This document shows positions 13,802-49,628 of a stretch of 64,000 bases of DNA, piece after piece. The first letter of the stretch is position 1; every line of letters starts with the position of its first letter. Source of the DNA: Hyaloperonospora brassicae (lineage: Eukaryota; Oomycota; Peronosporomycetes; Peronosporales; Peronosporaceae); the NCBI GenBank assembly GCA_947650285.1, contig CANTFL010000634.1, positions 474,413 through 538,412 of the forward strand, read 5' to 3'. Position numbers and translations under genes: made by a program. The notes under the pieces were generated by a model that saw only the letters and a list, made by a program, of their open reading frames with translations, searched no databases and had not been told where the DNA came from.

Positions 13802-14242
13802 TGTAACGGGCACCGATGACTACGTACTAATCAACCAGTATGAAGCTAACCTTTCACTGACTACAATGATATTCAGTGCCTTACTAAGTGTAGAACTACA
13901 CAGAGGAAGATAGAGCGATTAAGACAAAAAGTCAAGTCGTGGTAAAAGTAAAACTGTCGTTTAATACAATAAAGTCCAATATCTCTCATTTTTCTTGTTC
14001 GTCCTAACTTGATTATATTAATCGAACGAAACGTATGATGACGTCTACTCACCACCCATTGAGCGCGTCTAGCAGAAAATGATGAGTTAATATCTTCTTA
14101 ATATTAACCAATGAGTAGACCCTTCGGTCAATTCAACAATATCACTATGCTCATCGATATTGTCAAAAGAATATTCAACGTAGTATACTTTGTTGTCAAT
14201 TATCCTTATTGGAAATGTCATGAAACGGGCTATCCCGTTACA
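13802..14242 (-). repeat. Gypsy family B 3' LTR
   Basis: 441 bp, starting tgtaacggg and ending cccgttaca, a 9-bp inverted terminal repeat. The adjoining tcccccctta at 14243 is the polypurine tract read on the minus strand, which fixes this as the 3' LTR. Confidence 0.85.
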
Positions 14243-14372
14243 TCCCCCCTTAACTGATAGTCACCGTGTGACAATCGAACCTTGGTGGCCACCCGTTGGT
14301 ATTAACAGAACGGGGAACACTTGTTGGTCGGACCCATTCATTCTTACTTTGCCTCGCCTAGTTGACATGTCT

Positions 14373-15960
14373 ATGCGGGGAGACTCAAAGATGAAACAGT
14401 CTTCTACTGCGCCATCCTCTGCAGCTGAAGATTCGTTAACTGCTACTCGTTCTCTGCTTGCATCTCCTGTCGCTGCAGGAGCACGTGGTGTCACACTTCG
14501 TGCACACGATGACTCCGAGTTATGGGTCAGCTACTCTGGCGAGTTAGATGTGTCTGACTCGGGAAAGGCTCCAGAGGCATTGAAAAACCTACGGTGCCTC
14601 TTCCTTTAACTAAGGACCTGCCGAACAGACGGGCTCGCGACTTGCGTCACGGTCTGATCGGCAGTGATGGTGAGTCCGGTGATGAGTACTATTACTCATC
14701 ACCACGATCAACTCGTACGTCTTTGCACGAGAGCGTTGACGATGGAGCAAGCCGTCTTCACACTGAAGCCCGTGGTACCGACGAAGTTACCACGTTAAAA
14801 CGTGATGAACAGAAACCTTGGCGTTTGCCAGAGCAGCTCATCAATAGCTAGTCTCACGAGACAAGCCAACATCATAGAATTGCATTATTCGATGCAACCG
14901 AGCTTCATAGCTTGTCCAGTAGCGCGAGCAGCTTTCGCGCTGAAGAATACTTCAATCTCGATGCCTTTCTTATACATAGATGGCACAATGGTAATTTAAA
15001 GCGTGACAAGCACTCGCTTTTGGCAGCGTGGAACGCGTTCGTCCAAAACGTCAAGAATTTTGAACGTAAAGTGTGGCTTCAAATAGTTGATGCATTACAC
15101 ATCAAGTTCGAGAAGCGAACAGCAACCGGTTCAAGATACCGATTGAATCGATTGTCGCGTGAGGCAGGAATTCCTTGCCTCATATAGGGTGACCATTGTG
15201 CGATTTGCTTGTACAACTCGCAACGCGCTAAACGGGAAGTCTTTTTCCAAAGTTCGTCCTGTGGAAGGTCACACATCTCACCTGAGATGCGTGACGCGAT
15301 TGCAAACATGCAATCCGTATACAAGCGCCAAAAGCGCGTGTTTATCGATGATACCAACGACCAATCGGTTGAGTCTCGTCATACAGTCGGACGAGACCCT
15401 CAACATCAGCTATTAGCTGGGACCGAGGCTCCCAGCTGTCTAACGAAGGTGGATACTCCCGCCAGCGAACAAAACAACTTGTCCTCTCCCTGTTCTTCAC
15501 GCGTTGGCCAAAAATACGCCCCACGTGAAAGCGTCGACCACCGTGAGAATCCTCCAGTAGTTCCGGCGGTAATGGAAAGATAATGTCTGGCCGACCAGCG
15601 GGTCTAAGGGAGATTGTCGATCGTCACGAAAAATAACTGATTGAGTTGAGGGACGACGTGGAGCACGAATACAGTCGACGGCATGTCTTGCTGACGACCG
15701 TGCGACGTTCCTCTATCGATCAGGAGAAATACCGATCGGAATTCGCATTTGCTCGGCTTGAGAACGAACGCGGTACTCGTCACTTGCGGAACGAGCTAAA
15801 GGCAGATCGCCGCGAGAGAGCATCGATGATGGACCAACTTGAGAGTTTGGTCCGTGATAACAAGAATATGTTGGGGATTTTTGAGTGGGCCGGATGTTTT
15901 TGGCCTCGGAAGAGGCCTCGTACGGATAGTACGGGCGGAGACGACCAACATAAGACGTAG
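14373..15960 (+). pseudogene. Antisense accessory gene of gypsy family B (copy 1, broken)
   Basis: This frame lies on the strand opposite to the element's gag-pol, between the chromodomain and the 3' LTR. It starts MRGDS 131 bp inside the LTR edge. A Ser/Ala-rich N-terminus (with YSGELDVSDSG) is followed by a conserved block: FLIHRWHNGNLKRDK, SLLAAWNAFVQNVKNF, FEKRTATGSRYRL, then MRDAIANMQSVYKR at about 15290, and a charged coiled-coil-like C-terminus at 15646-15960 (LENERGTRHLRNELKADRRE). Frame changes near 14590 and 15590 and stops after 14851 and 15187 break it. The same protein occurs in the second family B element at 42361-43788. I recognise no known domain; it is not gag, pol or env. 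Its 3' half overlaps the chromodomain and linker of pol on the other strand. Confidence 0.6.
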
Positions 15961-18900
15961 GGTGCCTGCGCATACTTCGAGGCAGCTTTATTGTGTATGC
16001 ATTGCCTTTGCAGTGCAATACACAAAGGGACCGATGTATTTCGGTAGCAGTTTACTACTGCCGACATTAGTGACTGCATGTCCAGGTAAGTTTACCGTAG
16101 ACAGTAGTACTAGGTCTTTAACCTTAAATGAAAGAACATTTTCTCTTCCATTCTTGTCTGCGTTCCGTTTCTGGCGGCGAACCGCATTTGCGATGGAGTT
16201 CTGAACGAAACGGACTACCGCTTCTCGAGTCAGCAGGAAGTTCTCTACTGACTCTTTGTTTTGTGTGGCAGTGCGCTTCGTGCGCACTGCTAAGAGATTC
16301 TTCCCTTCTTCAGCGACGGGGTCGATTTCCTCGCTGGCATAATCGTTGACGATGCTAAATATTCCATAATCGTCATAACGTTCTGATGTAGTAGCAGCGT
16401 CAATGCTACCGTTAAAGTCAGTTGCGTCAATGTCGACAGTATCGACATCGGCGTCAAACGTATCGGCGTCAGCGATGACACGTCATTAGCAAGATCTTAA
16501 ACGCTTTTTGCCCGAGCAAGTCCCTTCCCCTTTAAAACCAGAGTCACTCTGTATCAAGGCGGAATTACGTGACATAGTCTACTCATGTAAAACGGTGTAT
16601 GCGTCGTGGAAGCATGCACGGAGTTGTTGATGACAAACTCGAACATCGGCAAAAACTCACTCCAACTCGAAAAATGGGGAAGTATCCTCGAAGTATTTAT
16701 TGGTGGACACGATTTGCATGTTCGGCCTGACGGGATGATCAGAGGTTGACATCTTAAACCGTGTTTCCGATGTGCGGAACACGGATTTTCAAAAATCCGC
16801 CGCGACCGAGGGTCACGGTCGAACACGAGTTCACGGGGTAATCCGTGGAGTCGAACCACTGTGTCGATGAACCAACGCGCACATCCGTGTGCAGTGATCA
16901 CCCAAGGGACCGCAGCAAGATGCAATATCGTGCTAAAACGATCCACAAACATAAGATTACCATTATTCTTTTGATTGTCTTCGGAGAACTTGAAGACAAA
17001 TTCCATGAAATCTGATTCCACGCACTTTTCTAAAACCGGCAGACGTTTTAATGGTGCACGAGGATAAAGGACTAAGCTTCACCCGCTGACAGGCCTCGCA
17101 CGAACAAATGTACTTGCGCGCAATCGGATACTGGCGTGGACAGTAAAAGTCACGTCTTACCGTAACTAAAGTCTTATATATACCACGATGCCCGTCTTAT
17201 GGCGCATCGAGACATTCGAACATGATTCGTAATCGCAATTCATCATGATCGGGAACGAAGACACGAGGATTATCGTCGGCAACTGCTTTGTAGTACAGTA
17301 GACCATTTCGAGTCGTATACAAATCCAACGAGGTACGGTATTGAGCCGGCAAAACTGACAAGGATTTCCGGGATGGAATCGCTAGATGACCTATCAAACG
17401 GAGAAGATTAGTATATCCTGCGTATGCCTACCGCACTTCGTCGAGTAAAGGCGGTGACGGCACACTGACGGATAGCGTCGCAACAATGGGCAAAGCCTTA
17501 CTGTCAAAGAGCGCAGTCGGCTCGAAAGCGCATCAGCGACGACGTTAAGTCGTCCTGGTTTATACTTCACGGAGAAGTTGTACTCCGCGAAGAACGACAG
17601 CCACCTCGCCATTTTTGCGAGAGATGGAGACTTTTACGGCCGTACGTCACTACGAATTGTCCGTATAGACAACAAACGGTCTATCTCTCAAGAGATGGAC
17701 GCGAAACTTAGCCGAGCGTACTTCATGGCAACGAGTTCTTTATTATGCACTGGATAATTGCGTTCAGCTAGTTTCAGCTGAAGCGACTTAAAGCAGAGGA
17801 CGTACTCTACGCCGTCTGTGTCGTACTGCTTCAACGCACGGCCGATTACAAAATCGCTGGAGTCAAAGACCACATGTAATGGTCTGTCGTAATCGGCTAT
17901 AGTCAAAAGGGGCGACTGTATCAAGCTTCTCTTGATACTTTAAAGGAATGCTGACAGTAAATATTCCATGACCCCTTTGCATTTTTCTTGAGCAAGCAAA
18001 TAAAAAAGATGAACATACATCTCGGCGTAGTTGCGTGGGTTCTTCTGCAAGTACTACGCTAAGCCAAGGAACTTACGAAGTCTCTTGACAATGGCTGGCA
18101 CGGGCCAGTCGGTAATTGCCTTGATCTTTTCGAGATCAGGGCGTATGCCGCGCTTACCCACAAATCACCCATAAACTGGTATTTCGCTAGCCGAGAATAT
18201 ACAATACTTGAGTATGGCGTACTACTCATTATTACGCATCAGTTGAAGGACTTGACGAACGTGAGTTCTTTGAACTTCCTCGTCCGTCTTTCCGTCCATA
18301 TCCCGAATATGGACGAACACATCGTCGAAGTAACTCGGTGCGAAGTCTCGCACCGGTCTCAACAGATTTGTAACACATCTGTTGAATGTTAGAGGGGTGT
18401 TACTCAGTCCCTGTGGCATCACTAGTGACTCCCACAGCATACCGCAGGGGGCGCTCATCCATATGTACGGGATGTCTCGTCCCCGCGTGAAAATCTGATG
18501 AAAGCCATCCATCAGATCCATGGACGAAAAGATGGTACTCTTTGACATACTATCTATGATTACGTCCTTCATCGGTATCGGCGTCTGTGTCGGTACCGTT
18601 GCATCATTCAACTTAATGGATGCATGCACAATCCGCCATCTACTTGTGGGCTTTCGCACACAGAAGGTCGGAGAGCTGTGAGGGGATGTTGATTCTCGCA
18701 CATGGCCCGCTGCTAAGTGATCGGAAAAGATCATGACGACCGCTAGTACTTGTTCACGAGGCAGTATCCACTGCTTAATGACACAGTACATTTAGCCCTG
18801 TTTGAGCTCGATCTTGTGTCGAGTACCTTTGTCTGTAGGCAACTCGAAAGGCACGGATATAGGTAATACGTCTTAAAATTTGACCAAATTCATGTACAGA

Positions 18901-19950
18901 GGATTTGCCTGAAGTGATTCCCAGGATTGAGGCGAGTATCTTATAATCATTTTCATCTCATCGATGACACTTTCGTCCATCGATTTAATGCTGAGAACCT
19001 GTTTGGTCTCAGTAACTACCATTGAAGATCGAATATCGATGGCGTACTCGTCCTCCGCGACGATTACACAGATCTGATTGACTTAGCCACTATGCAGATC
19101 ACGCAAGAACCATTTCAGTTCTAGTGTTGACAATTGAGTTATCTCCGAATTTAAATTCGAAGACACAATCAGATCGAGCGTGTAAGCGCCTACGCTGATC
19201 CTTCATTTGTTAAGACATTTAATGTCTCGATTACTTCTTGGAAAGTCACATCCACAGGATTTATGAGAGCTTTCTCCACAATGTAATGATCATCTACACT
19301 TTGTTCTTGTACAGTCGCACTAAAGACCGTATCTCAAGTGAGGCCATCGCACTCACTTGCAGTACACCCACGTGAATGTGAGCGTTCCAATACATTCTTC
19401 AGTAGGCCATCTGAAGAACAAGTGGCAGGCATCGTTACTGAGCGATGTTGCCAGCTCACCCTTGGTTCGTATCTCCTGAGCCAAGGTAGTCCTACGATTT
19501 CATCAAACTTGTCATCCAGGTCGAGTACGATGAAATCGTCATCGTACTGTTCATTTTTCGACGTGAATTGAATTCCGACTACACACGTTTCTTCACAGCG
19601 ATCTATGCGCCTGTCGCTAGACGCACCGTCATTCTCGTCGAAGGAATCTGCCGCTCCACGAAGTTGATTCTTCCATCCTCTAGTGACTGGCGACGAACGA
19701 AATTTTTCGAATCCCCACAGTCAACTAGGGCGCAAAGTGTCAAGTCATTTGTCGCTTTCAATATCAAGGTGATGAGGGACACCTCACCACCAGTTGTAGA
19801 GACATGCAGAGATGGTGTGTAGGAAGCAACCTTCGTCAAGAGCTTTGTAAATTCTCTAGATGTTGTTGGATCAGTAGGGTTCTCCGCCGCTACTGGCCCG
19901 AACATTTTTGATGTTCCGCCTCGCTGTTGCGGCTTTGCAACAACATCGGA
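15342..19950 (-). pseudogene. Gypsy family B pol pseudogene with chromodomain
   Basis: Read leftwards: protease with ALVDCGDSKNF at about 19700; RT at 18222-18791 with PTFCVRKPTSRWRIVHASIK and an intact YFDD active site (APSYFDDVFVHIRD); RNase H with VVFDSSDFVIGRALKQ at about 17860, in which the usual catalytic D of the CDAS position survives as FDSS; integrase zinc and core at 16554-17397 with MESDFMEFVFKFSED and VFDRDPRS; a linker and GPF-type segment at 15988-16287 (VKDLVLLSTVNLPGHAVTNV) and at about 16000 (HPTSYVGRLRPY); and a chromodomain C-terminus at 15342-15524 (REYPPSLDSWEPRSQL). Stops and frame changes lie throughout. Chromodomain integrases are thought to direct insertion to chromatin marks. 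Confidence 0.8.
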
Positions 19951-21012
19951 CCCTCGTCGCCCAGTTCTTCTGACTGATGAACGGTTACTGCGCTCAGCAC
20001 CGCAAGGTCCTGAGCGAAGAATACTGTATCCATATGTGTAGTGTCCCATTTTAACAGCGATGACATCTCATCTATCGCTTGTCGTTTGAAGGGCGAGGTT
20101 TCTCGCCCTTGACGTTACAGAGGTCCATAGGCTCTGAACCTTCGACCGCCGGTCGTCTCTGTGGACGATAGGGAGTTAGCGTAGTGTGAGCCTGTATCAC
20201 ACACAATAAAGTCTTCCCGCTCCTTAGCGTAGATTGCTTTGGAGAGCATCTTTAGCTCCTTGGGAAACAGGTGGTAGCTGACGGGGCCATCTGAAAGACC
20301 TTGAATCAATATTGTGATCTTCACAAAGTCAATCACAGGTTTCACTACCATGCAATTTGCAAGGTAGCATACATGCTGAGCGTAAAATTTAACCTTACGC
20401 TTACCCTGCTTGATCTCGAGGAGTTCAGATGGAGTACTGAAATATGCCCCTAGTGGCTCAAACGTCTCACTGAGCAAGGACTTGTAGGTGTCTAACTACT
20501 TAAACACGCTCGGGTCGCTTAACTCGATATTCAGGGCCCAATTTCTGGCGCCCCCTGCCAAGCACGACTGAGCAAATGTAACTTGCATTCTCTCATCGTC
20601 GATGCGATATGTCTCGATGGCACCGTCGACTTCGACGAATCATTTTAACTGAGAGCCGTTATCAACTCCGTGATTACTTGGAGATCTCTAGCTTTAGAGA
20701 ATCCTGCCGACGCCAACGAGTCATCGATGCGGGCTGAGACTGATGCTGTCTCAGTTCTTCAGTCCGCTGGTGATCCTGTTGTCTCAAAAAGGTCACCTGC
20801 GCTCGCGACTCAACAAGTTATCGTTGCAAGAACTTGCTGATGACGGCATGCTGCTGGTCTCTATCCCTTATGAATAGCATGGCCCAGATAGCATCTTCGC
20901 CAACGGTCAAACTTATTCGTTCAATCGTACTCCATTTGACATCGCTCAAATGAGAGTAGCTTACACGGTTTCTGTGAAAAATGTCGCTTTCGACTTCGTC
21001 CAACGTGTTCAC
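19951..21012 (-). pseudogene. Gypsy family B gag pseudogene (copy 1)
   Basis: The ATG at 21012 (MNTLDEVESDIFHRNRVSYS) matches the gag start of the better copy at 37111, and DRDQQHAVISKFLQR matches its DRDQQHAAISKFIQHE. After a gap of broken frames the C-terminal half follows at 20115-20477, and the zinc knuckle at about 20045 has decayed to GHYTYGYS, losing its last cysteine. Confidence 0.7.
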
Positions 21013-21062
21013 GTTGGCCGATGCGATTGTGGTCCTTGGACGGACAACAAAGTGCTACCAGG

Positions 21063-21504
21063 TGTAACGGGGCACCGGCGACTACGTACTGGACTACCAG
21101 TACGGAATTAACCTTTCACTGACAACAGTGAAGTCCAGAGCCCAGCTAGGTGCAAATACTTACACAGACGAAGGTTACGACTAAGGTAAAGACTATAGTC
21201 GCAGTAAAAGTAAAACTGTTATTAATACAACTAAGTCCTATAAATATTGTTTCTCTTGATCTTTCTGACTTGATTATATTAATCGAACTAAACGTATGAT
21301 GACGTCAACTCACCACCCATTGCGCGCGTCTAGCAGCGATTGGCGGATTATAATCATCTCAATATCAATTAATGAGTAGCCCATTCGGTCATCTCTACAA
21401 TAACACAATGATTATTGATATTGTTAAAAGAATATTCAACGTAATATACTTTGTTGTCCTTTTATCCTATATGATAGTGTCATGTAACGGGATATTCCGT
21501 TACA
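21063..21504 (-). repeat. Gypsy family B 5' LTR
   Basis: 442 bp, tgtaacgggg to ttccgttaca; pairs with 13802-14242. To its left on the element strand lies TGGTAGCACTTTGT, the primer-binding position. Confidence 0.85.
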
Positions 21505-34599: not shown

Positions 34600-36673
34600 A
34601 TTCGTTTCAAGAACGAGGTGCTGCTAGTGCTCTAACAGCGCTGAGTAATACCATAGCCTACGAGCCTAACATTATCGACAATAGGATCGATGAGCAACAA
34701 CTGCACGATCTCTAGGAGGACGAGAGCGTTCAAATATAGTCGAGGACCGTGGCGTCCATACTGGCGAGACAAAATTATGTATTTCGAACGCCCGTTGTTG
34801 ACGAAAGGCTTCGACAGGTCCCGCATTGATCTTTGATGGGATGGGCTCCCAACCCGAGGCTACAATGCGTAACAAAATTGCTGCGCATCAACCTCTACCC
34901 AAACACTACCTAATAATACAGCTTAAGCCCATGGATCAATATCTGCCAAGGCTAAATGATCAAGCACGTGATGCACATGTAGTCTCCAGGAGGGCATTCC
35001 TGTCATCTTCTACCCGTTTGAGTCGGATTTTAACAATGAGATTGACTCCACTCGCTGGTTAAAGCGCATGCGTTGAATGCATATTCAAGACGCTCTCCAT
35101 GCTAGTGACGACGTTTTCGGTGTTTCTTTTGGAACGAAAACTTCGCTACCTCTTCGCAAAGTTGAAGTCCAGAGTCAATTGCGGTCACTATATCAACACT
35201 CCACGCGCATCGATGCACCCAAGCGCGATCGCAATAAGTGCTTCGGCCAAAACAGCCAAGGGTTTAGTCATGACATGACAACAAGCCCTTCGGTGCCTGC
35301 GAATGCGAGTGCTATGCGTGAGGTGTTAGAGTGAACCCTGCGCACGGCGCTCAAAAACGTCAACGGTGTAAGGAAAATCTTGTCGCAAAACGATCTCGTT
35401 TTCCCACGAATTTATTTACTCAATGTACTCGCGCCACCTCACCAAGTATTGGTTCTGGCGGTTGCGACGACGTCGTTTCAAACGTATTTCTACGTGACAC
35501 TAGCGAATCATGATCATCGAGCCGAAACGGCGGTAGCCGACACGTCGAAGGCATTCCATGCCAGTTCAAATCAAATGTCTAACAAATAGAAGCACGAAGT
35601 GCGGCGTGTTGGCGATTACGCGGAACGTTTCAACTCAATGGAGACCCTAAAACTGTTTCTAAAACAGGGTCAATATCGTTGGGGGGAAGCTCGATATTCT
35701 GATGCGGATGCATCGATTCGTAACACAGCCACCTTCGGCGGCACAAGCGCCTTAAGCGTCAAAAAAATTGATGCAGCCTGATACGGCTTGATTGAGCCAA
35801 CGTTGAACTCGGGTTTTGTGCGCAACTTGCGTTTAATGTTAATCGTGTGAGCAAAGTCCTTCTTGGAGGCGATCGTGAACGATTCGATGAAGCTTGGACA
35901 CAACCTAAACGTGAAGAAAGCAGACAATACAGTTGTAGAAAATGTTTAGCATTGAGTAAAACCTGGTCTCCAACTCCATAATTGTCAATAGAACCTATGC
36001 TATTTGCATCTGCTTCTTCCATATGTCTGTCTTGGCTATTAGCCAGTGCGTCACGTACATATCGTAAAATATTTGATCGCATTGCGAGAAACTCGCTAAC
36101 TTATTTTTGAACAGTGATATGGAAGATATCAGCAAACCGACAAGACGTTTCTCCCCCACCAATCCCTGAAATACGCATTATTAGCGGTAACGGAACGCGA
36201 GAGTGTGTGAGGCCGATCACGTAGTATGGATTAAAGGCTGTAGAAGCGTGAACACCATTGTTTAGCTCAAACCCAACGACAGGGAGCATTGAACTCCAAC
36301 GTATCGGCGTAGTAGCGCAAACACTGCGAAGTTGTCACCGATAACGCGATTCACGCGCTCGTTTTTGCCATCGGTCTGCGAATGATCCGCTGTGGACATG
36401 TTCAATCGTGTGAGTAGCATGTTTGAAGAAGGGCTTCTAAAACTTCCCAGTGAAGCTTGGATCTCTATCAGAGACAATTACCACAGGCAAACCGTGATGT
36501 CGAAACACTCGATCGATAAACAGCGTGGCTGAACCTTTACTATCAGTGGTATCTAACACAGCTGCCAGGTGAGCCATCTTGCTCAAACAGTCAACAAAAA
36601 CCACAATATCTGTATTACTATACATCGAAAACCGAACATGAATTCCATGCTGATGGACTACCAACACCCCTTG
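34600..36673 (-). pseudogene. Gypsy family A pol, 3' part (integrase core to chromodomain)
   Basis: Cut from its 5' part by the family B insertion at 36674. Integrase core at 36437-36667: VVFVDCLSKMAHLAAV, GLPVVIVSDRDPSF with the second catalytic D, then the segment with QTDGKNERVNRV and the catalytic E at about 36350. C-terminal segments follow: GVGDQVLLNAKHF at about 35960, and the GPF-like stretch RLCPSFIESFTIASKKDFA with KPEFNVGSIKPY at 35750-35910. A chromodomain lies at about 35350-35510 (RRRNRQNQYLVRWREYIE, stop, INSWENE). From 35340 to 34600 frames of unclear meaning remain (including ASGWEPIPSKINAGPVEAF at about 34860). Several stops and frame changes. Confidence 0.75.
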
Positions 36674-37066
36674 TGTAACGGGGCAGCCCGTTACATGGAA
36701 TTGTCACTAAAAAGAAAGTGACAATAAATAATATTAAGTTGAATATTATTTGAACAATATCACCAAAGTGGTGATATTGATGGATCGACCAAAGAGTCTG
36801 TTCATTGGTTGATATCTTGATGATATCAACCCACCAATCGCCGCAAGACGCGCGCAATGAGTGGTGACGAGACGTCACCATACACTCAGTTAGATTAGTA
36901 TAATTAAGTTAATTCAAACAGAGAGACAGTGGATTAAAGACTTAATTATATTAATATAACGGTTCTGCTTTTTACCTTATCTACGCTTCCTCGTTTGCCT
37001 CGTGTACGTCTGTCGGGCGCACCGATACCCTTGCGTTAAGTTCACGCAAGGGTGTGCCCCGTTACA
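36674..37066 (+). repeat. Gypsy family B 5' LTR (nested element)
   Basis: 393 bp, tgtaacgggg to ccccgttaca, a 10-bp inverted terminal repeat. Pairs with 43925-44317. Followed two bases later by TGGTAGCACTTTG in the primer-binding position. Confidence 0.95.
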
Positions 37067-37110
37067 CCTGGTAGCACTTTGTAGTCCTTCCAAGGACCAC
37101 AACATCCAAC

Positions 37111-38304
37111 ATGAACATGTTGGATGATGAAGAGACCTTTCACGCCACGCGTGAAGGGTTTACCCATTTGAGTGACATCGAATGGGGTGCGGTAGAACGA
37201 ATGAGTTCTACCGTAGGCGAGTTCGCCATTAGCGCCATGTTGGAGTCTCTAGACAGAGACCAACAACATGCCGCTATATCCAAGTTCATCCAGCATGAAC
37301 TTGTCATCGAAAGGGAGAAAGTAGCCTTGCTTCACCAGCAAGGCTCTCAACAGGCCGAGCAGTTGAGAGAACTCGGTGCTCAACAGACAGAGCTGTTGAG
37401 ACAGCAGCAATTCCATGATGCTGTAAGCGGGACGGCGCATGCGCGTCAACCCGAGGTCATGAAAGTTGACATCTCCAAGTTCAGTGGAGTCCCGGAAGAC
37501 TCCCTATCACTATGGTTTGTCGAACTCGACAGAGCCTTAAGGGCTCGTCGCATTGAAGATGAGCAAATGAAACTCACATTTGCTCAGACCCACTTGGCAG
37601 GGCGTGCCAAAACGTGGTCCCTGGGGCTCGAGAGTAGCGACCCACATGTATTTAGGTCGCTAGATGACTTCAAGTACCGGCTCAGATAAACGTTTGAGCC
37701 GCCACGGGCTGAGTTCAGGGCTCGTTCAAAGCTCCTGAAACTCAAGCAGGGTAAGCGTGGTGTGCACGCTTACGCTCAACATATACGACTCCTCGCGAGT
37801 AGTATAACTGCTAACCCAGTTCATGAACACACGTTGATTACGGTGTTCATGCAAGGGCTCGCAGAAGGGCCCGTCAGGAGCCACCTGTTCCGCCTTGAGC
37901 TGAATACGCTTGAAGAAGCGATATCAGCCGCGGAACAGGAAGACTTTATCATGATACAGGCTCATGCTAGCTTAAACTCTTATCGTCCACCAAGACGACA
38001 AAGGATCGGAGGTCCAAAACCAATGGACCTCTGCTATGTTGAGAGCGAGAGTCCTCGCTCTTCAAACAACAAGCAATTGCAGAGGTGCAATCGCTGTCAG
38101 AAGTTAGGGCACTACGCATACGAGTGTAGTGCTCCACGCCCAGTACCAAATAGTACTGAGCAGAATGGACGACCATTTGCCAGAATGGACGACCATTTGC
38201 CAGAAAGGGCAATGGGCGTGGGTCCAGCACAGTTGCGAAGCCGAAACAGCGAGACGGACCATCAAAAAATGGTCGGGGTCAGTAGGGGCGGAGCGCCCTA
38301 CTGA
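37111..38304 (+). pseudogene. Gypsy family B gag (one stop, tandem duplication)
   Basis: Starts MNMLDDEETFHATREGF at 37111; about 397 codons. The N-terminal part contains a Gln-rich helical stretch (QQAEQLRELGAQQTELLRQQ), then the gag core (SLSLWFVELDRALRARRIED). A TAA at 37687-37689 interrupts the frame, which resumes at once (TFEPPRAEFRARSKLLKL) and ends with an intact zinc knuckle CNRCQKLGHYAYEC (CX2CX4HX4C). A 20-bp tandem duplication at 38161-38200 shifts the frame just after the knuckle. Comparison with the other copy at 19603-20049, where knuckle and protease share one frame, indicates the duplication plus one further small indel near 38280 put gag and protease out of frame here. Confidence 0.85.
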
Positions 38305-38305
38305 T

Positions 38306-41300
38306 CCAGCAACCTCAAGAGAATTTGCAAATCTCTTGACGAAAGTTGCTCCAGATACACAATCATTGTGTGTCTCTGCACCTGGTGATGACGTTTCGCT
38401 CATCACCTTGAAGTTGGAAGCGACAAATGATTTGTCGCTTCGTGCCCTAGTAGACTGTGGGGCGTCGAACAACTTTGTTCGTCGCCAGTCACTAGAGGGT
38501 CGTAGGCTCAAGTTCGTTGAGCGCGACATTCCCCTCACGAGGATGACGGTGCGCCTTGCAACAGGCGCATCGATTACCGTTAAGAAACGTGTAGTCGGAA
38601 TCCACTACACGTTGGAGGGAGAACAGTACGATGATGACTTCATCGTACTAGATCTGGATGATAAATTTGATGTCATCCTGGGATTACCTTGGCTCAGAAG
38701 GTATGAGCCAAGAGTAAGCTGGCAGCATCGATCCGTGAAGATGCCTGCCGCTTGTTCATCAGATGGCCATCTGATGAACGTCATGGAGCGTCCACAAGCG
38801 TGTGGATGTACTGCAAGTAAGTGCGATCGCCTCACTTGCGGTGCGGTCGTTAGCAAGACTGCATAAGATCACAGTGTAGCTGATCACTACACTGTGGAGC
38901 AAGCTCCCTGCGGCTGTACACAAGTACAGGCGGCGCCGAAGGTCCACCACTCAAAGAATTCGAGTGGACCGGGACATGGATGCATGCCTAGCGGGCAGCA
39001 TCTTAGAAGTAAGAAACCCGTTGCCTTCTGAGGGCAACATGGGCATTCTAGGTCGACTGGATAGTCGACCGTAGAGGATCGGTGCCTGACTGTGGTTGCA
39101 CAGCCACAGTCAGAAGACGTCGAGGGAATAATCCCACGTACTTGAGGAAGGAATTCCTCAAGATTCACTTGCTGAAGGATCAGGCCCTCAGCAACCTGTG
39201 GAAGAAAGTTCTTAAGAAGAAACCGAGACGTTGAACGTCTTGGCCAATGACGGATCAAGTGTAGGCGCTTATACACTTGATCTGATTATTCCTCCGAAGT
39301 TAACTTCGGAGATAACTTAGTTGCTAAAGCTAGAACCGAAACGGTTCTTGCGTGATCTGCGCAGTGGCAAAGTCAAACATATCTGCATACTCATCACAGA
39401 GGATGAGTATGTGGCCGATATTCGGTCGGCAACAGTATTTGCTGATACCGAACGGGTTCTCAGCAGCTCATCGATGGACGAAAGTGCCCTCGATAATAGA
39501 CTCGGATTGAGCGATACAAGTCTCAATCCTGGGAGTCACTTCAGGCAAATCCTTTGTATAAGGATTTTATCGAATTCAAGGATGTATTCCATGAATCCGT
39601 ACCTTGCGAGTTGCCTAAGGACAAAGGCACTCGACACGAGATCGAGCTCAAACCGGGCTCGAAGTACTGTGTCATGAAGTAGTGGCCACTGCCTCGTGAA
39701 CAAGTACTAGCGGTCGTCATGATCTTTTCCGATCACTTAGCAGCGGGCCATGTGAGAGAATCAACATCCCCTCACAGCTCTCCGACCTTCTGTGTGCGAA
39801 AGCCCACAAGTAGATGGCGGATTGTGCATGCATCCATTAAGTTGAATGATGCAACGGTACCGGCTCAGACGCCGATACCGAGGAAGGACGTAATCATAGA
39901 TGGTGTGTCAAAGAGTACCATCTTTTCGTCCATGGATCTGATGGATGGATTCTATCAGATCCTGATGCGTGAACGGGACGTCCCGTTCACGGCAGTGAGT
40001 ACCCCCAGCGGGATGCTGTGGGAGTGGCTAGTGATGCCACAGGGGCTGAGTAATGCCCCTGCTACTTTCAACAGATGTGTTACAAGTCTGTTGAGACCGG
40101 TGCGAGATTTCGCGACAACTTACTTTGACGATGTGTTCGTCCATATTCGGGATATGGACGGGGTGACGGACGAGGAAGTTCACAGAACACACGTTCGTCA
40201 AGTCCTTCAACTGATGCGTAATAATGAGTAGTACGCCATACTCAAGTATTGTATATTCGCGGCTAGCGAAATACCAGTTTATGGGTGATTTGTGGGTAAG
40301 CGCGGCATACGCCCTGATCTCGAAAAGATCAAGGCAATTACCGACTGGCCCGTGCCAGCCATTGTCAAGAGACTTCGTAAGTTCCTTGGACTAGCGGCGT
40401 ACTTGCACAAGAAACCACGCAACTACGCCGAGATGACTGTTCATCTTTCTTGCTTGCTCAAGAAAAATGTCAAGTGGTCATGGAACGCTGAGTGCCAGCG
40501 TTCCTTTGAGGGTATCAAGAAAAGCTTGATGCAATCGCCGATCTTGGCGATTGCAGATCAGGACAGACCATTTCATGTGGTCTGTGACGCCAGCAATTTT
40601 GCAATCGGCTGTGCGTAAATACAGTTCGACGCAGATGGCGCGGAGCGCGTCATCTGTTATCAGTCGCGTCAGCTGCAAGCAGCTGAGCGCAATTACCTAG
40701 TGCATGACAATGAACTAATTGCCATGAAATACGCACTGGCTAAGTTTCGCGTCTATCTCTTGGGAGATAGACCGTTCATCGTCTATACGGACCATGCGTC
40801 ATTACGCACGGCCGTAAACAGTCCACACCTCTCGCAACGAATGGCGAGGTGGCTGTCTTTCTTCACGAAGTACAACTTCTCCGTGGAGTATAAACAAGGA
40901 CGACTAAACGCCTCGTGTCGTCGTACCCGCTCATCATGATTTGCTTTTACGCATCATGTATGAGTGTCGCGATGCCCCAACAGGCGGCCATCGTGGTAGA
41001 GAAAAGACTGACCTCACGGTAAGTCGTGACTTTTACTGGCCCCGCCAGTATCAGTTTGTACGCAAGTACATACGTGCTTGTGAGATTTGTCAACGGGTGA
41101 AGCCTAGTTCTTCATACCGTGCGCCATTGCAGCCTCTGCCTGTTCCGACAGAGTGCTGGCAGTCCGTTTCAATGGACTTCGTCTTCGGTTTCCCCGAAGA
41201 CGCTCACAAGAATAATGGTATTCTTGTGTTTGTTGACCGATTCAGCAAGATGGTCCATCTTGCTGCTGTCCCCGAGTCGATCAAGGCTCAAGGTTGTGCT

Positions 41301-42886
41301 CATGTCTTTCTAGACACGGTCTTCAGACTCCACGGGTTACCCCGTGAACTCGTATCCGACCGTGACTCTCGGTTCACGGCGGCATTTTGGCAAACCGTGT
41401 TCCATTCTCTTGGAACACGATTAAAGATGTCCACTTCTGACCATCCCGAAACAAATGGTCAGACAGAACGTGCGAACCGTATCCTCGAAGAGATTCTTCG
41501 AGGATATGTCCACTCGTTTCCTAGTTGAAGCGAATTCCTACCCATGGTGGAATTCGCCATCAAATAATTCGGTGCATGCTTCCACACAGCACACACCGTT
41601 TTACGTGAATGGCTTACGGCATCCACGTGTGCCTACCCTTCTAGAGTGTGACTCTTGGATAAGGGGGGAGGGACTCGCTCGATCAAAAACCGTTTTGGCT
41701 CTTGCTCATCACGTGTCGACGATAACGGCGTCACGAATGATGCCGATGTCGATCAGGTCGACATCGATGAAGAAGATCAACTCAATAATAGCGATGACGC
41801 TATTATTGACTCGGATGATGATGACAATGCTGGTATATTCAGCATCGTCAACGATTATTCCAGCGAAGAAGAAGACAACCTCGCTAAAGAAGAGAGCAAT
41901 CTCTTAGCAGTGCGCACGAAGCGCACTGAAAGACAAAACAAATATTCAGCAGAGAACTTCCTGCTGAATCGAGAGGCGGTAGTCCGTTTCGTTCAGGACT
42001 CCATCGCAAATGCAGTGGACCGTCAGAAACGGAACTCAGACAAGAATGGAAGAGCAAATATTCTTTCATTTAAGGTTAACGACCTAGTACTACTGTCTAC
42101 GGTAAACTTACCTGGACATGCAGTCACTAGTGTCGGCAGTAGTTAACTACTGCCGAAATACATTGGTCCCTTTCGTGTGTTGCATCGCAAGGGCAATGTA
42201 TACACAATCTAATTTCCACGTAAGATGCGCACGCATCCTACGTTTTACGTGGGGAGGCTCAGGCCGTACTGTCATTACGAGCCTTCTTCTTCCAGTGAAG
42301 ATAGCCCCCACGTTCAAGAACATACATCAAGTTCTTGCGTTCGCGCTCCAGACTATCCGTCTAGTCGCGCAGATATGATACCTCGGAACTCAACCGAGAT
42401 ATCTCCCTGCGAGCTTTCGCCAGCTCGCCGAATAGGGAGCGGACATCCCGCTCGACCTGAAGCTGCGCTGTGGCATAATCGGCGCGATCCCTCGCCCGAT
42501 CAGCCTCGTGATCCTTGCGGTTCTTCCGCACGGTATCAGTCAAAGCGTAGCGCCGGTCGCGCTCGTGCTTCAAGTCATCGCGCAATTCATCGATTGCGCG
42601 ATCCATCTCGTAAGGGTCGAGATGGTGAACCGAATCATCTGGAGGAGGTCTTTCCTTCTCCACAACATCCTTTGGTGGATGCTCACGGTGGTCAACGCTT
42701 TCTAGTGGAGCGTATCTTGAATCACCGTGACGATTCAGGATCAAGGACGAGCTACCTCGTCCAGTGGCGGGGTATCCACCCTCTTGGGACAGCTGGGATC
42801 CCCTCTCTCAGCTGTTGATGGACGTTGAAGGTCTCGTCCGCCAGTATGACGAGATTCACCCGATAGTTCCTTGGGATCATCGATAA
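38306..42886 (+). pseudogene. Gypsy family B pol with chromodomain (few lesions)
   Basis: Protease in the frame 38129-38866 (ALVDCGASNNFVRRQSLEG). RT at about 39560-40290, broken by TAG at 39678 (YCVMK-stop-WPLPREQ), TAG at 40229 and TGA near 40286, with an intact YFDDVFVHIRD active site. RNase H at 40540-40900 with CDASNF, NELIAMKYAL and TDHASL, stop TAA at 40617. About 300 bp between RNase H and integrase are missing compared with copy 1 (17200-17580). Integrase 40941-41528 keeps the zinc region (CEICQRVKPSS), SMDFVFGFPED, VSDRDSRFT and NGQTERANRILEE, so D, D and E are all present. An acidic linker, a GPF-type segment (HPTFYVGRLRPYCHYE) and a chromodomain (FLVERILNHRDDSG, SYLVQWRG, frame change, YPPSWDSWDP) end at a TAA at 42884-42886. 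Confidence 0.85.
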
Positions 42887-43788
42887 ACACGCGCCCTAGG
42901 CGCTTGTAGACGGATCGCAAGTTTGCAATCGCGTCACGCATCTCAGCCGAGATGTGTGCCCTTCCCCCAGGGCCAACTTAGGGAATACACGTCCCTATGT
43001 GCACGCTGCGAGTTGTTAACACAACTCGCACGAGGGTATCCCCATGTGAGGCAAGGAATGTCTGCCTCACTCGATAAACAGTGCAACCGGTACCTTGCAC
43101 CGGTTGGCGTTCGCTTTTCGAACCTGAGGCGTGTCGCCTCAAGTTTCTTGAGCCACCCTTCTCGTCCAAAATTCTTTACGTTTTGGACGAACGCGTTCCA
43201 CGCAGCCAAAAGCGAGGTCTTGTCACGCTTTTGGTTGCCGTTGTACCATCGATGTCTAAGGAAGACATCGAGATAAAAATCTTCTCCAGCGCGAAAGTTC
43301 TTCGCGCTGGAACTCAAGACGTGAAGCTCAGTCGCATCGAATAAGGGTATTCGATGTTGTTGGCTTGTCTCGTGAGACAAGCTATTGATGAGCCGTTCGG
43401 GCAAACGCCACGGCTTCACCTCATCACGCTTCACAGTGGTACCCTTGTCGGTACCACGGCTCCCAGATTGACGACGCCTCACGCCATCGTCGTCACTGAT
43501 GAACAGACTGTGATGCAGATCACGAGTCCGTTCGTTCGGCAGTGGCCTTAGCGAATACGGAGGCGTCGCCGGTGAGCGAGACGACTCTGGAGCATTGCCC
43601 GAGTCAGAAACGTCTGACTCGCCAGAATAGATGACCTCAACGTCGGGGTCATCATGCGCACGCGGTGAGGTGCCGCGTGCACCTGCAGCACCTGTTGCTG
43701 CAGGCGAAGAAGGAGCAGCAGACGACGAATCGTATGCAGCAGAGGCTGGCACAGCACCGAGCTGTGTGGGTCTTGAGTCACCTCGCAT
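42361..43788 (-). CDS. Antisense accessory gene of gypsy family B (copy 2, best preserved)
   Basis: On the strand opposite to gag-pol. An uninterrupted frame of 281 codons (43788 to 42943) starts MRGDS 137 bp from the 3' LTR. It has a low-complexity Ser/Ala/Pro N-terminus with VIYSGESDVSDSG, then FLRHRWYNGNQKRDK, SLLAAWNAFVQNVKNF, RFEKRTPTGARYRLH and DIPCL. A one-base shift in a G-run at about 42960 moves the frame to MRDAIANLRSVYKRLGRVF (42741-42941), and a second shift returns it to 42361-42744, a charged coiled-coil stretch (IDELRDDLKHERDRRYALTD) ending in a stop. About 475 codons in total. The last 526 bp overlap pol (linker and chromodomain) on the other strand; the first 900 bp face no coding sequence, which argues that this strand is the coding one. 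Same protein as 14373-15960. No known domain recognised. Two frameshifts suggest this copy is recently inactivated. Confidence 0.6.
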
Positions 43789-43924
43789 GGACCTGTTAAC
43801 TATGCGAGGTCAAGCGGAAAGTAAATGGACCGGACCCAACAAGTGCTCCCTGTCCCAATGGTGGCCAACGGGTGGCCGCCATATTTTCAATAGTCACACG
43901 GTCACTATCAGTTAAGGGGGGTGA

Positions 43925-44317
43925 TGTAACGGGGCAGCCCGTTACGTGGAATTGTCACTAAAAAGAAAGCGACAATAAATAATATTAAGTTGAATATTCT
44001 TTGAACAATACCACCGAAGCGGTGATATTGATGGGTCGACCAAAGAGTCTGTTCATTGGTTGATATCTTGATGATATCAACCCACCAATCGCCGCAAGAC
44101 GCGCGCAATGAGTGGTGACGAGACGTCACCATACACTCAGTTAGATTAGTATAATTAAGTTAATTCAAACAGAGAGACAGTGGATTAAAGACTTAATTAT
44201 ATTAATATAACGGTTCTGCTTTTTACCTTATCTACGCTTCCTCGCTTGCCTTGTGTACGTCTGTCGGGCGCACCGATACCCTTGCGTTAAGTTCACGCAA
44301 GGGTGTGCCCCGTTACA
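43925..44317 (+). repeat. Gypsy family B 3' LTR (nested element)
   Basis: 393 bp, same length as its partner at 36674-37066. Preceded by the polypurine tract taaggggggtga and followed by the target duplication CCTTG. Confidence 0.95.
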
Positions 44318-46808
44318 CCTTGGATAAAGGTAAACTAGCTAGCGGCGACGCCGCGTGATATGAGGATTCAACCTTTTGACACGTTTTGCACGCACGCATA
44401 TATTTGCTTACCCATTTATAGAGTTTAGGCCACCAATATATTTGGATCACAGATCCATAAGTCTTCTCACGACCGGTATGACGACTCAATGCAGGATCAT
44501 GTGCCTCATAGAGTGTCCGATACTTTGACTCCTCATCGTGATGGACAACGATACGAGGGGTATTTAAATACACCCGTGCTGTAGAACAACAGACCTTGAT
44601 CGATGGAATATCTTGAAGCCTCGCACGTAATCGTGTTGACAATTCTATGTCTGGGTCCTTATACTCCTCGCGTACAATATCACGTAGAATAGCCACACAA
44701 TGTGCAGAATTGGCGTAAGCCGTACGGATGAGAATAGTAAATGAAGACGACAAAGTCGTAACATGAGCATTCTCATAGTCAGGCCTGCGCGATAACGCAT
44801 CGGTCAGCAGGTTTTGCTTGCCTTGTTTGTACTTAACCTCAAAGTTGTACTCGGCAAAGAATGAGAGCCAACGAGCTATTCTGTAAGAGCGATGAGGTGA
44901 CTGCGCTACAGTTTGTAGCGACGCATGATCGGCATAGATCAGAAAAGGATAGGAGCGATGCAGATAGACTCTGAATATGACGGGATATTACTTTATTGCA
45001 AAAAAACTCTTTGTCATGAACTGGGTCGTTCTTCTCTGAAGCTTTTAGCTGGCGAGACAAACCTGCAACAACACGCTCATGACCATCTGGATCATCTTGC
45101 AATAATATACAGACAACGTCACAATTAAAAGTGTCACACACGACTCTAAAGAACCGCGCGGGATCTGGCATATTCAAGACCGGACCTAAAGAAAAACTTG
45201 CTTTACAGCTACAAAAGAATTATTATATGTGCTAGTCTAGCACCATTCCATATCCTTCTCAAGATTGTTGCATGATGGCCGAGCCATGTCTAAGTAATTG
45301 TAACTGTAACTTTTCAAGTAGTTGGCGAGACCGAGCCACTTGCGTGGGTACTTTTTATTCTTAGAAACCGACCTAATTGTGGATTTAAAATTAGTGGAGT
45401 CGGCGCGTAAGTCTTGCTCACCAATGAAGCACCCGAGAAAATCGATTTCCCCAGCGACAAAGAGGCAGTTAACTGCGTTCTAATACAGATAATATGTTCG
45501 CATGCACTCGAGCACGGATCTTAAACTGTCAATATGGCTGTCCACGTCGGACTGATCATTCAATGCACGACTACGGACAAAGATGTCATTAAAGTACGTT
45601 TGTGCATAACTTCGATGAGGTCCGAACAATTGCGTCACAAGAAGGTCGAACATATCCGGGGCATTGGACATAACTTGAGGAATCACAAGCCACTCATAAC
45701 GCACACTACTTGGAGTGGTGACCGCAGTTAGCGGGATATCGATTTCTAGCATGAACAATTGGTAATAATCATCTAGATTCGTCGAGTGCAATGAGCCTGG
45801 TACAGCCTAACATGGTGTAATGAAGCACATCCACCCGAGGGATTGGTTTCTGGGCCGGTATGGTGTCTGCATTTAGGTTATTGGAAGCGTGAGCAATGCG
45901 CCACTTACCATTCGGCTTCTTGACACAAAATGCGGGCGTAGAGTGGGTAGACTTACTCTCTCGGACCATTCCTGCCGCGTGCTTAGCGCGAAAAGAAGTC
46001 GTCAATGATGTCGCACTGTTCCTTTGGTAAGGACCACTGTCGTATAACGCAGTACTTGGTTCCAAAAACCAGGCCAATTTTATGACGGACACCTCTATCG
46101 GGAGGTAAGACGGAAGGTCGGCGTTACACACCAAGTCTCACAAATTTCTCGATTAAAAGGTAGAAGATATCCATGGGATACTTAAGGATCGCAGATCCAC
46201 TACGGTCATCGAGTTCTATCTTTTTGTCTTCAAGGCCAGATTCATCTATGAGTCTGGCGAGTTTATCTCAGGCCCGCAGCGAATGACCACAAGGTTTAAT
46301 AAGTAGCCTACCTTCAAGGATTGACTACACTCACCAGCAGAAAAATCGTCTCGCTCAAATGGAGCATCAAAAGATGGAAAATCGTCAGGGCTAACGCTCC
46401 CACAAACGTGAAAAGTCACTCCATTGACAAGTGTAAATATTGTATTATTACTATCGTCCCTATGCAACGACATGGAATCTTTGCGTTTGGAAGTTTCTAC
46501 CTGACCTCGCTATAATCTCTCATAGAGGTCTGAAAAGATTATCCCCTGATTATCGCTAATTAAAACGTTTCAATACGAGTGCTGATGTCCTGACCGATAT
46601 TTATTGAAGGGTTTCTTTGCTCGAACACTTCATTCAGTGAATGTATACGTGACACACTACGCACATCTCGCGAGCTCTGCTAGTGATGTCTCTGCCCTAG
46701 TCCATTCATTCTCGCAGCATTTGATGATTAATTATCACCATGATCATCACTCAACGGAATAGGTGGCGCATCACCCCCCATCGATGAGTCTAGCTTAGGA
46801 CTTACGTA

Positions 46809-48027
46809 GTGTAGAGAATTTCAGTCCCGGGATATTAGTTCAGCGACGTAAGTGTCGACAACTTGAGGGTCGACGACTTGGGTGTCGGCGACATAAGTTC
46901 CTTCGGCTTTAGTGTCGGAGACCGGGTGTCGGCGACTCGGGTGTCGGCAACTCAATTGTCGGCTACCCGGGCGTCGGCGACTGAAGTGTCGACGACGTTA
47001 GGGTGTTGGCTACTGTGTCGGCGACTTAAGTGTCGACGACTCAAGCGTCGACGACTCAGGTGTCGGCGACTCGGGTGTCGGCGACTCGGGTGTCGGCGAC
47101 TCGGGTGTCGGCGACTCGGGTGTCGGCGACTTGTGTGTCGGCGACTCAAGGGTATAGCAGAATGCGAGAAGATCGATTGACAGATTCATCACGTTATTTG
47201 TATAGGAACTAGGGAGGGACATAGAGCCATTCAAACTGGCTCCGCGAGAAAGCAAAAGAGATAAACCAATACAGTGCAGAATTTTCTAAGTCCAAGACAC
47301 GCGTACACTTAAGGTAATCCCCTCCATGGGCTAGATTATGCCTGCCGTCGAACCTCGAGAGGCATAGCTTATAGAAATATCGACTAGTAACGCCAAGAGT
47401 AAAAAAGGTAAAAATAAATCAACGTTTATAATAACGTAATAGATTTTTTTTAAATATTTAATAAAATATTTGGAACTCGGCAAAATGACTTTGTAACTTC
47501 GGGATAAAAAGTACCTAATTTTTCTAAATTAGTTGTCACAAAATAGGGGGTTGCGACTGTTATATAAAAACTTAGGACTCTGCTTAATGGTGAAGGCCCG
47601 GGTTGGGCAGCGCTCGCTACTAGCGATGGAAGGAGTCTCGTCGTCGACGAGCCTGTGACCCAATAGACGGCACCGTCGAAAGTCTTGTCGAGCGACAAGC
47701 CGGTGGGCATCAGCCGAGGGCATCGTAATTCTTTTAGTCGGACGGACACTACTCCCAATGACCTGTAAAAACGCGTGAGCGTCGGCTTCCACCCGTTGGT
47801 GTGAAGTCACAGGAAGAGAGTGGTTTAGAAGCTGCTGAGCTCAGACAGACTTCTGGAGGAGTGGTTGTAAGGAATCGGCTAGGCGAAAGCCGCGACTGAA
47901 CACGAAGGGGCGAACCGCGTAGAGATTTATCCAAACGTACCAGCCCGTTGCGCCCACTAAGCTCGGCGATTGTTTTGTTTGTACGTTGAGGCTGTTATAC
48001 GACGGAATTAACTAACTACTACACCAC
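46809..48027 (-). mobile_element. 1.22-kb MULE-like non-autonomous element
   Basis: Flanked by a perfect 9-bp duplication ACTTACGTA (46800-46808 and 48028-48036). The flanks rejoin to the continuous sequence seen in the related family A copy at about 11095-11150, which proves an insertion. Nine-base duplications are typical of Mutator-like elements. The end at 48027 reads GTGGTGTAGTAG on the minus strand and is repeated at 25134; the other end (gtgtagagaatt) is only loosely inverted. It has no transposase frame. Its left third is an array of 15-bp repeats; its right part is the sequence shared with 25134-25585. Confidence 0.7.
46838..47150 (+). repeat. 15-bp tandem repeat array
   Basis: About 20 units of GTGTCGGCGACTCGG and variants. 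Units 47060-47119 are four perfect copies in a row, the next two (to 47149) differ at two or three bases, and leftwards the units become more mutated (gtgtcgacgactcaa). Because 15 is divisible by 3 the array gives open frames on both strands (46863-47212, 46952-47149, 47010-47255), which are not genes. Confidence 0.95.
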
Positions 48028-48599
48028 ACTTACGTAATTGACATATCTGGAGTCAAGAAACTATGACAAACCAATGCCCAGCACACGAGTCATTTCAGGT
48101 AATGACCCACGCCAATAGTGCGTTTGTTTCCTAGCAGAGGTGGTTTAATGGCTCTAAAGCTCCGCTAGGAGCCCTGTGTGTGGTGTCTGGCAATCTCTGG
48201 CGATGTGACAGACGTTCCTGTTGCCAGACGAACGGCGATACTCTCACTATATTGCGCTCTGAGAGCTTCAGCATACGGCTGAGTCCCTTCCAGGGAACGA
48301 CGACGAGTATAATTTCTTGACGCATCGGAATCGATGAGAATCGTTTAGGGGTTATCGAACCCGTTACAGTTGCTGTACCACAAGAAATTTCAACTTACAC
48401 ACATGCTTTGTGTTGTAGAGCACGGAGCGCTGAAGGGCTAATCCCTGCTCACCATCACCTCCCTGAGGTATCACATAACATATTTCAACCCCAGTAGGGC
48501 ACCCCGCACTTACTGGGAGTTGACGTTTTCCCGTGCAGTACCAGAGCTTTGGTTGTTGGCAGGGATTTGACTCATGTGAGCCTGGTACTGCTGCGCGAT

Positions 48600-49567: not shown

Positions 49568-49628
49568 CCTTACAGAGGATCAGTCTTTACAGACTCAGGC
49601 GTAGATTGACTGCAAGTGCTACCAAATG

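Follow-up and report, generated by a model that had tools for sequence, protein, structure and literature searches.

The question raised by this locus was whether a long terminal repeat (LTR) retrotransposon of the oomycete Hyaloperonospora brassicae carries a gene of its own on the strand opposite to gag and pol, and what such a gene might do. The stretch analysed, called the window here, comprised 64,000 nucleotides (nt) of contig CANTFL010000634.1 (positions 474,413 to 538,412) and held two copies of one element family, family B. The first-pass annotation, made from the sequence alone, had taken a frame starting with MRGDS near the 3′ LTR as an accessory gene, antisense to gag-pol, in a family of Ty3/gypsy elements with a chromodomain. 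Open frames in relatives and the ratio of non-synonymous to synonymous substitution rates (omega) bore this out. Family B belongs to the Ty3/gypsy elements with a chromodomain and numbers well over a hundred copies. Besides gag and pol it has a third gene, which codes for a protein, is convergent with the other two and lies in the interval from pol to the 3′ LTR.

A protein-coding antisense gene near the 3′ LTR

Both family B copies in the window were defective. Copy 2 was a complete LTR element (36674–44317) with broken genes. From the ATG of MRGDS, its antisense frame was open for 281 codons on the minus strand (43788–42943) with no gene opposite, and it began 136 bp from the 3′ LTR, in agreement with the 131–137 bp first given. 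Copies 1 and 2 were identical at 62 of 91 residues in a stretch containing SLLAAWNAFVQNVKNF, which was in line with the 39 of 56 noted earlier; that shorter count was not repeated. Residues 1–532 of an intact relative, L012, aligned with 43788–42265 at 78% identity (tblastn), so the gene of copy 2 ended ~100 bp past the 42361 given by the first-pass annotation. The start it had placed at 43788 held, and the gene comprised ~533 codons in less damaged copies.

Relatives were collected from the genome (100.56 Mb in 898 contigs). A search with the 281-residue frame gave 270 matches, and 138 of 2741 candidates were scored and ranked by score; copy 1 served as the query of a second search, in which 150 of 1935 candidates were scored as matches. 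Stop-free frames of at least 530 codons were present in 77 of the 138 scored matches and frames of at least 480 codons in 103, and a stop lay inside the match in 14 of the 138. The longest open run in 500 dinucleotide-matched random sequences with the length of the open reading frame (ORF) was 311 codons.

The less damaged relative L045 displayed the gene order. Its gag (257–1447, sense strand, 396 codons) matched Retrotrans_gag and Ty3_capsid above cut-off, and two zinc knuckle models were matched, both under cut-off. Its pol (1342–6342) was a single 1666-codon frame with protease (PR), reverse transcriptase (RT), RNase H, integrase (IN), SH3 and chromodomain, the last (PF00385, residues 1606–1656) at the integrase C-terminus, as in chromoviruses. 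LTRs, gag and the pol order PR-RT-RNaseH-IN placed the family in Ty3/gypsy (Metaviridae). No second RNase H reached E 0.01 in L045 pol; the two models that matched overlapped on one domain. The antisense frame occupied 5714–7336, with its first ATG at ~7321, 132 nt from the 3′ LTR; the interval from pol to the 3′ LTR was about 1.1 kb. The overlap with pol proposed at first was also seen, the C-terminal third of the gene running tail to tail over the end of pol for ~629 nt, chromodomain included. The remaining ~325 codons faced no gene.

Age was judged in 21 element-length loci (L031–L050 and L061). LTR pairs were comparable in 19 of them (not in L039 and L040), over spans of 236–393 nt, with the 5′ LTR cut in most stretches. 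At LTR identities of at least 99%, eight of ten copies kept an antisense frame of at least 530 codons, the exceptions being L033 and L048, which indicated that recently transposed copies normally include the frame. Below 99%, one copy of nine (L061) kept it. A single full-length pol frame was present in 2 of the 17 copies listed. In L046, L047 and L049, pol was split at the same place (1339 + 411 codons), and this shared break suggests that elements with a broken pol move with help from others. L061 (131857–139857 of C64) belonged to a divergent subfamily, with LTRs 98.7% alike over 298 nt; its antisense frame was open for 571 codons, yet its gag-pol lay in many pieces.

Selection was measured in an alignment of 40 copies, 30 from the search with the window frame and 10 others (L051–L060). 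Variants present in at least two copies were taken as inherited during multiplication and singletons as mostly arisen after insertion, and expected counts were drawn from the same mutation spectrum. In the non-overlapping part, the shared variants comprised 108 synonymous changes (66.5 expected), 126 non-synonymous changes (160.9) and 2 stops (8.5). Omega was 0.48 (codon bootstrap 0.37–0.62) for shared variants and 0.88 (0.69–1.14) for singletons. The corresponding values in the core (codons 142–325) were 0.26 (0.17–0.40) and 0.73 (0.55–0.98), so the singletons were near-neutral and not strictly neutral. Without L051–L060, omega was 0.37 (0.24–0.56), and 0.75 (0.53–1.07) for singletons. Shared variants were distributed over the codon positions as 55/62/119, third positions varying twice as often, and four of the other five frames gave omega values of 1.35–1.92. 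Between subfamilies, pairwise omega in the core was 0.14–0.33 in seven of eight pairs and 0.83 in the eighth; gag and pol, as comparators, gave 0.30 and 0.18. The non-overlapping part of the protein was thus kept by selection during multiplication and largely released after insertion. A chance open frame was rejected on omega, on the random-sequence runs and on the pairwise values. Two outcomes had been named beforehand as speaking against a gene, an omega near 1 on the antisense strand and routine breakage in young copies; where no gene lies opposite, omega was well below 1, and the young copies were not routinely broken.

The protein was compared in 12 members, the other 11 being 65–98% identical to the first. 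The N-terminus was acidic and rich in Ser and Pro, and an Asp/Glu stretch in it was prone to indels. It was followed by a conserved core (WRLP ... HRWYN.NQKRDK.SLLAAWNAFVQNVKNFGREGWLKKL ... CLTWG.PC..C) and by a C-terminal region with a heptad-rich stretch and then a basic terminus, which read HRKKKARTDS in most members. C270, C277 and C280 were invariant and H288 nearly so (CxxxxxxCxxC...H pattern), and these residues possibly form a metal site. The profile search for remote homologues proposed at first was unproductive, with none above cut-off: Pfam gave only sub-threshold matches for the 12 members (Lzipper-MIP1 in 10 of them). Neither TRP28 (PF04195) nor a bZIP domain was found in the antisense product by Pfam, the coiled-coil matches being sub-threshold.

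Several observations count against this picture of the antisense gene. The ranking of matches by similarity to the window frame favours intact copies, and L051–L060 were picked partly for long frames. The fifth alternative frame, on the opposite strand with the same third positions, gave an omega of 0.59, and in two pairs it gave 0.54 and 0.41 vs. 0.43 and 0.41 for the antisense frame. It contained 17–18 stops over two sequences, the antisense frame none, and it is ruled out by these stops only. The N-terminal part was loosely kept, with pairwise omega of 0.53–0.86 in seven of eight pairs and 1.41 in one. In the C-terminal third overlapping pol, shared variants gave 0.91 (0.58–1.47), so selection on the coiled coil is unsupported by that measure; pairwise omega there was 0.35–0.77. 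A common break in L018 (the same locus as L048), L022 and L024 reduced the antisense frame to 492–493 codons from stop to stop. This truncated form, with ~45 C-terminal residues cut, has spread to several copies, and the extreme C-terminus may therefore be dispensable. A PDB search with the protein gave three matches (E 0.28–0.78), none credible. Among possible relatives in IMG/VR, 137 stretches with the pattern were found and none was confirmed. Fold prediction of the 281-residue frame alone was unusable (mean predicted local distance difference test, pLDDT, 38.5). No TATA box or oomycete initiator motif was found on the antisense strand of the leader; the initiator scan is a weak negative since it was blank for the sense LTR too.

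Short hairpins along the whole element

Perfect hairpins of 7–12 bp are maintained along the whole element over its replication cycle, by selection or by a process confined to that cycle. With a hairpin defined as a perfect stem of at least 7 bp and a loop of 3–20 nt, the density per kb was 12.7 in copy 2, 5.2 in copy 1 and 0.9–2.3 in five other stretches of the window. Two of these five, one on each side of copy 2, belonged to a related Ty3/gypsy family, family A, and had 1.1 and 1.6 hairpins per kb. Stems numbered 97–138 in each of 15 element copies vs. 4–14 in one shuffle apiece, and L045 contained 138 hairpins vs. 10 in its shuffle. Its density per kb was 17–19 throughout gag, pol, their overlap with the antisense gene, the antisense-only part and also the 3′ LTR, 15 in the short leader and 8 in the truncated 5′ LTR. 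Stems of 7, 8, 9, 10, 11 and 12 bp numbered 27, 37, 34, 30, 8 and 2, respectively. Loops peaked at 3–6 nt and were mildly A-richer on the sense strand, and 132 non-overlapping hairpins made up 41% of the element.

Synonymous-codon shuffling reduced the 74 hairpins of pol to 6.3 (maximum 13 in 50 shuffles) and the 19 of the antisense-only part to 1.8 (maximum 6 in 100). Hairpin starts were unphased with respect to codons (48/45/45). An origin as a by-product of composition or of the encoded protein was rejected by the dinucleotide and synonymous-codon shuffles. Mean z scores of predicted folding, computed per 150 nt against shuffled sequence, were −5.41 on the sense and −5.83 on the antisense strand of L045, with 96 and 92% of the 150-nt segments under −2; in L061 they were −3.68 and −3.82, and two other stretches of the window gave −0.07 and 0.04.

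One-copy ascertainment inflates conservation, and stems were therefore redefined as the union over copies. In 20 element copies, the rate of variants in stems relative to outside was 0.38–0.48 for shared variants and 0.90–0.98 for singletons, union stems included; the 40-copy ORF set gave 0.52–0.78 and 0.97–1.04. At third positions of pol, shared variants per site amounted to 0.045 in stems and 0.138 outside, and singletons to 0.296 and 0.337. In-place DNA repair on inserted copies was disfavoured as the source of the hairpins, the singletons being uniform.

One test of the stems gave clear covariation, others moderate. In the comparison of L045 with L061 (81% identical), 41 two-sided Watson-Crick changes were observed vs. 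10.3 expected (maximum 20 in 200). Shared double changes among the 20 copies comprised 3 Watson-Crick changes vs. 0.3 and 1 other vs. 0.24. For the antisense-only part, 14 rows were aligned and the stems picked from these rows; 19 cells had changed on both sides vs. 6.8 (0 of 500 shuffles), with 9 such pairs vs. 5.2 (1 of 500). Only 60 of 136 hairpins shared at least four pairs with those of L061, which indicated that hairpins turn over and their density is kept.

Other counts stand on the opposite side of the balance. Double changes that were not Watson-Crick also exceeded the control between L045 and L061 (33 vs. 20.4), and part of the covariation is thus a clustering of changes. The excess in the ORF set was not pairing-specific (Watson-Crick 9 vs. 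2.0, other 10 vs. 2.5). With partners slid by one column, 6 pairs and 11 cells were still counted in the 14-row alignment, whose number of further pair types ran in the reverse direction (31 vs. 36.0, all 500 shuffles being at least as high as observed). Shared changes on one side of a stem gave 28 G-U and 30 A-C pairs, so neither RNA strand was singled out. Wobble pairs, loop composition and folding energy gave no clear preference for the strand of action.

A proposed regulator acting in trans and its rivals

The best explanation takes both results jointly: the antisense gene would regulate the element in trans, and the hairpins would let both RNAs fold on themselves. We give this joint reading a probability of roughly 0.55. 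The antisense transcript would begin in or near the 3′ LTR and encode a nuclear coiled-coil protein with an acidic N-terminus, a CxxxxxxCxxC...H core and a basic tail. This protein may act in trans on the element's own expression, as does HBZ of human T-cell leukaemia virus type 1 (HTLV-1) or as is supposed for the products of Retand and Grande. The hairpins, for their part, would make sense and antisense RNAs self-fold rather than pair together. Stems of 7–12 bp are shorter than Dicer substrates, so that the convergent genes would supply no substrate for RNA silencing. In Phytophthora infestans, Gypsy elements are matched by small RNAs of both orientations, and small RNAs are also plentiful at the overlap of an effector gene with a Copia element, where transcription is probably convergent (PMC3522703; published work is cited here and below from titles and partial texts). 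This pattern suggests a possible cost of convergent transcription. A weakness of this reading is that shielding accounts for hairpins only where genes converge, but the tiling covers the whole element. More tentatively, the whole element DNA, with both coding strands, may have been rewritten by selection into ~135 sub-Dicer hairpins, by which the RNAs would escape duplex formation and silencing, an armour that would permit a gene antisense to pol.

A copying bias would explain the hairpins without any function, by short template switches during reverse transcription that rewrite one arm from the other. Such a bias would yield the same pattern, confined to propagating lineages, and it was kept as a rival for this reason. 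It agrees with single breaks in stems that lack strand bias, and with stem conservation and covariation that are seen in propagating lineages and are absent from singletons. Hairworm mitochondrial DNA likewise accumulates inverted repeats in coding DNA, and its genes resemble family B in having perfect inverted repeats inside protein-coding sequence (PMC10380579). However, the hairworm repeats are less numerous and of greater length: 14 kb contain 55 hairpins of more than 10 bp, a part of them >100 bp, vs. 138 of 7–12 bp in the 8-kb stretch of L045 (PMC10380579). Arm copying might be expected to give such longer palindromes, but the stems of L045 peak at 8–10 bp and end at 12. The conservation of the gag and pol proteins speaks against it as well, and family A, likewise reverse-transcribed, has few hairpins. 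We regard the copying bias as possible but doubtful.

The hairpins might instead compact or protect the packaged genomic RNA, apart from the antisense gene. Genome-scale ordered RNA structure of this kind in RNA viruses consists of pervasive local folding over coding sequence and is accompanied by synonymous constraint. L045 resembles it in a folding energy far below that of shuffled sequence over its whole length, and the even tiling from gag to the 3′ LTR would suit compaction. The low sharing of individual hairpins with L061 also suggests that a general structure, not a set of fixed motifs, is kept. However, ordered structure would concern the sense (genomic) strand in particular, where selection on one RNA strand should tolerate G-U pairs; neither folding energy nor wobble pairs showed a preference for that strand in family B. 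Unlike the viral structure, that of family B consists of short, perfectly paired stems, alike on the two strands of integrated DNA, with z about −5.5 per 150 nt. Compaction seems about as doubtful as the copying bias, though worth keeping in view.

The antisense product itself could be a structural or replication cofactor and no regulator, such as an RNA chaperone, a packaging protein or an integration-targeting partner of the overlapped integrase-chromodomain. Its basic C-terminal tail, heptad-rich stretch and Cys/His core would suit RNA or particle binding too, and the spread of copies with an identical pol break makes trans-acting proteins plausible. Against this, no gag-, nucleocapsid- or chaperone-like domain was found by Pfam, and antisense expression would presumably uncouple the protein from gag-pol production. 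We consider a cofactor rather improbable. That the frame is a by-product, due to chance or kept open by composition, hairpins or the opposite pol, is highly improbable: stop density is low in such composition (3.3% of codons) and the pol overlap takes up more than a third of the gene, but ~325 codons have no gene opposite, variation is in excess at third positions, stops are depleted, core omega is low and hairpins are not codon-phased.

The position of the antisense gene is already known from plant elements; its protein and the chromodomain pol differ. Grande, RIRE2 and Retand, of the plant Retand/Tat lineage, have an antisense ORF in the interval from pol to the 3′ LTR (PMC11963269). They resemble family B in this position, shared by many elements, and in a possible DNA-binding or regulatory product (PMC11963269). 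The likeness to Tat elements raised by the first-pass annotation therefore stands for position and does not extend to the protein, since the plant product has TRP28 and that of family B has neither TRP28 nor any other Pfam domain above cut-off. Retand is described as a non-chromovirus, whereas family B pol carries a chromodomain, and the plant antisense interval measures 2.9–6.6 kb, that of family B about 1.1 kb (PMC11963269). Unlike the plant gene, that of family B overlaps pol by about 629 nt. HBZ, as are related retroviral proteins, is likewise encoded antisense near the 3′ LTR, with an N-terminal activation domain, a C-terminal bZIP and a TATA-less promoter (PMC10186651); the family B protein may share the activation-like N-terminus and C-terminal coiled coil but had no bZIP match. 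Chronos, an oomycete Ty3/gypsy element, also has a chromodomain at the integrase C-terminus; it differs in having two RNase H domains, the second of plant/archaeal type, where family B has only the Ty3/gypsy one (PMC5348765). The words antisense and hairpin do not occur in the main text of the Chronos paper as available (PMC5348765). In the titles and partial texts covered, no antisense gene in an oomycete LTR element and no hairpin tiling of an LTR element was found.

Family B, apparently a separate case with its own protein and a chromodomain pol, and supported by selection at the codon level, would argue for repeated evolution of antisense genes in LTR elements. It also offers a multi-copy system for repeating selection tests. 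The hairpin tiling matters more than the antisense gene. It amounts to a synonymous constraint over the whole element, with post-insertion singletons as a near-neutral internal control. To our knowledge, constraint of such strength has no counterpart in another mobile element. It makes testable whether local self-structure shields element RNA from silencing, and it cautions against treating synonymous rates in such elements as neutral. Together, gene and hairpins may bear on how the element controls or protects its own RNA.

Copy 2 and its surroundings

The features of the two copies are listed in Table 1. The LTR pair of copy 2 (L031 in the age sample) was 97.7% identical. The hairpin around the antisense start codon had at least 7 perfect pairs in eight of nine relatives printed, with a mismatch in L054. 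No known RNA family reached its gathering score over 36600–44400.

Table 1. Features of family B copies 1 and 2 in the window.
Feature	Position	Strand	Basis
Hairpin-tiled tract, whole copy 2	36674..44317	.	12.7 perfect stems (≥7 bp) per kb
5′ LTR, copy 2	36674..37066	+	blastn with L045 LTR
Putative primer binding site, TGGTAGCACTTTGTAGTC, TGG-type	37069..37086	+	begins 2 nt past LTR; read from sequence
gag, two frames, broken	37075..38282	+	tblastn, 92–94% identity to L045 gag
pol (PR, RT, RNase H, integrase, chromodomain), several frames, broken	38183..42883	+	tblastn, 79–91% identity to L045 pol; domains called in L045
Antisense gene, interrupted; open part 42943–43788	42265..43788	-	frame list and tblastn; ~533 codons in less damaged relatives
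Hairpin around antisense start codon, stem CCTCGCAT/ATGCGAGG	43781..43809	-	sequence and relatives
Antisense leader, start codon to 3′ LTR (136 bp)	43789..43924	-	sequence
Polypurine tract adjoining 3′ LTR	43914..43924	+	sequence; tract at same place in L045
3′ LTR, copy 2	43925..44317	+	LTR comparison and sequence
Copy 1, relative in opposite orientation, genes in pieces	13961..21504 (approximate)	-	5.2 hairpins per kb
Antisense-gene remnant of copy 1, several frames	14373..15933	+	tblastn

Gag and pol sequences of family A flanked copy 2 on both sides (36146–49258) and were also found at 9201–12534 (tblastn). Families A and B were 24–29% identical in gag and 34–56% in pol; tblastn with the antisense protein gave no match in the family A sequence of these two stretches. 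Two direct repeats, 33880–34179 and 49625–49924, were 98% similar and 15.7 kb apart; they are probably the LTRs of an outer family A element that received copy 2. Between copy 2 and the right-hand repeat, a tandem array of ~16 copies of a 15-bp unit, GTGTCGGCGACTCGG, occupied 46843–47147. Among six open frames at 51–60 kb, Pfam gave one weak GNAT match, under its cut-off. Two minus-strand frames, 51812–53305 (497 codons) and 57942–59294 (450 codons), had no Pfam match at E 0.01 and are perhaps host genes or exons.

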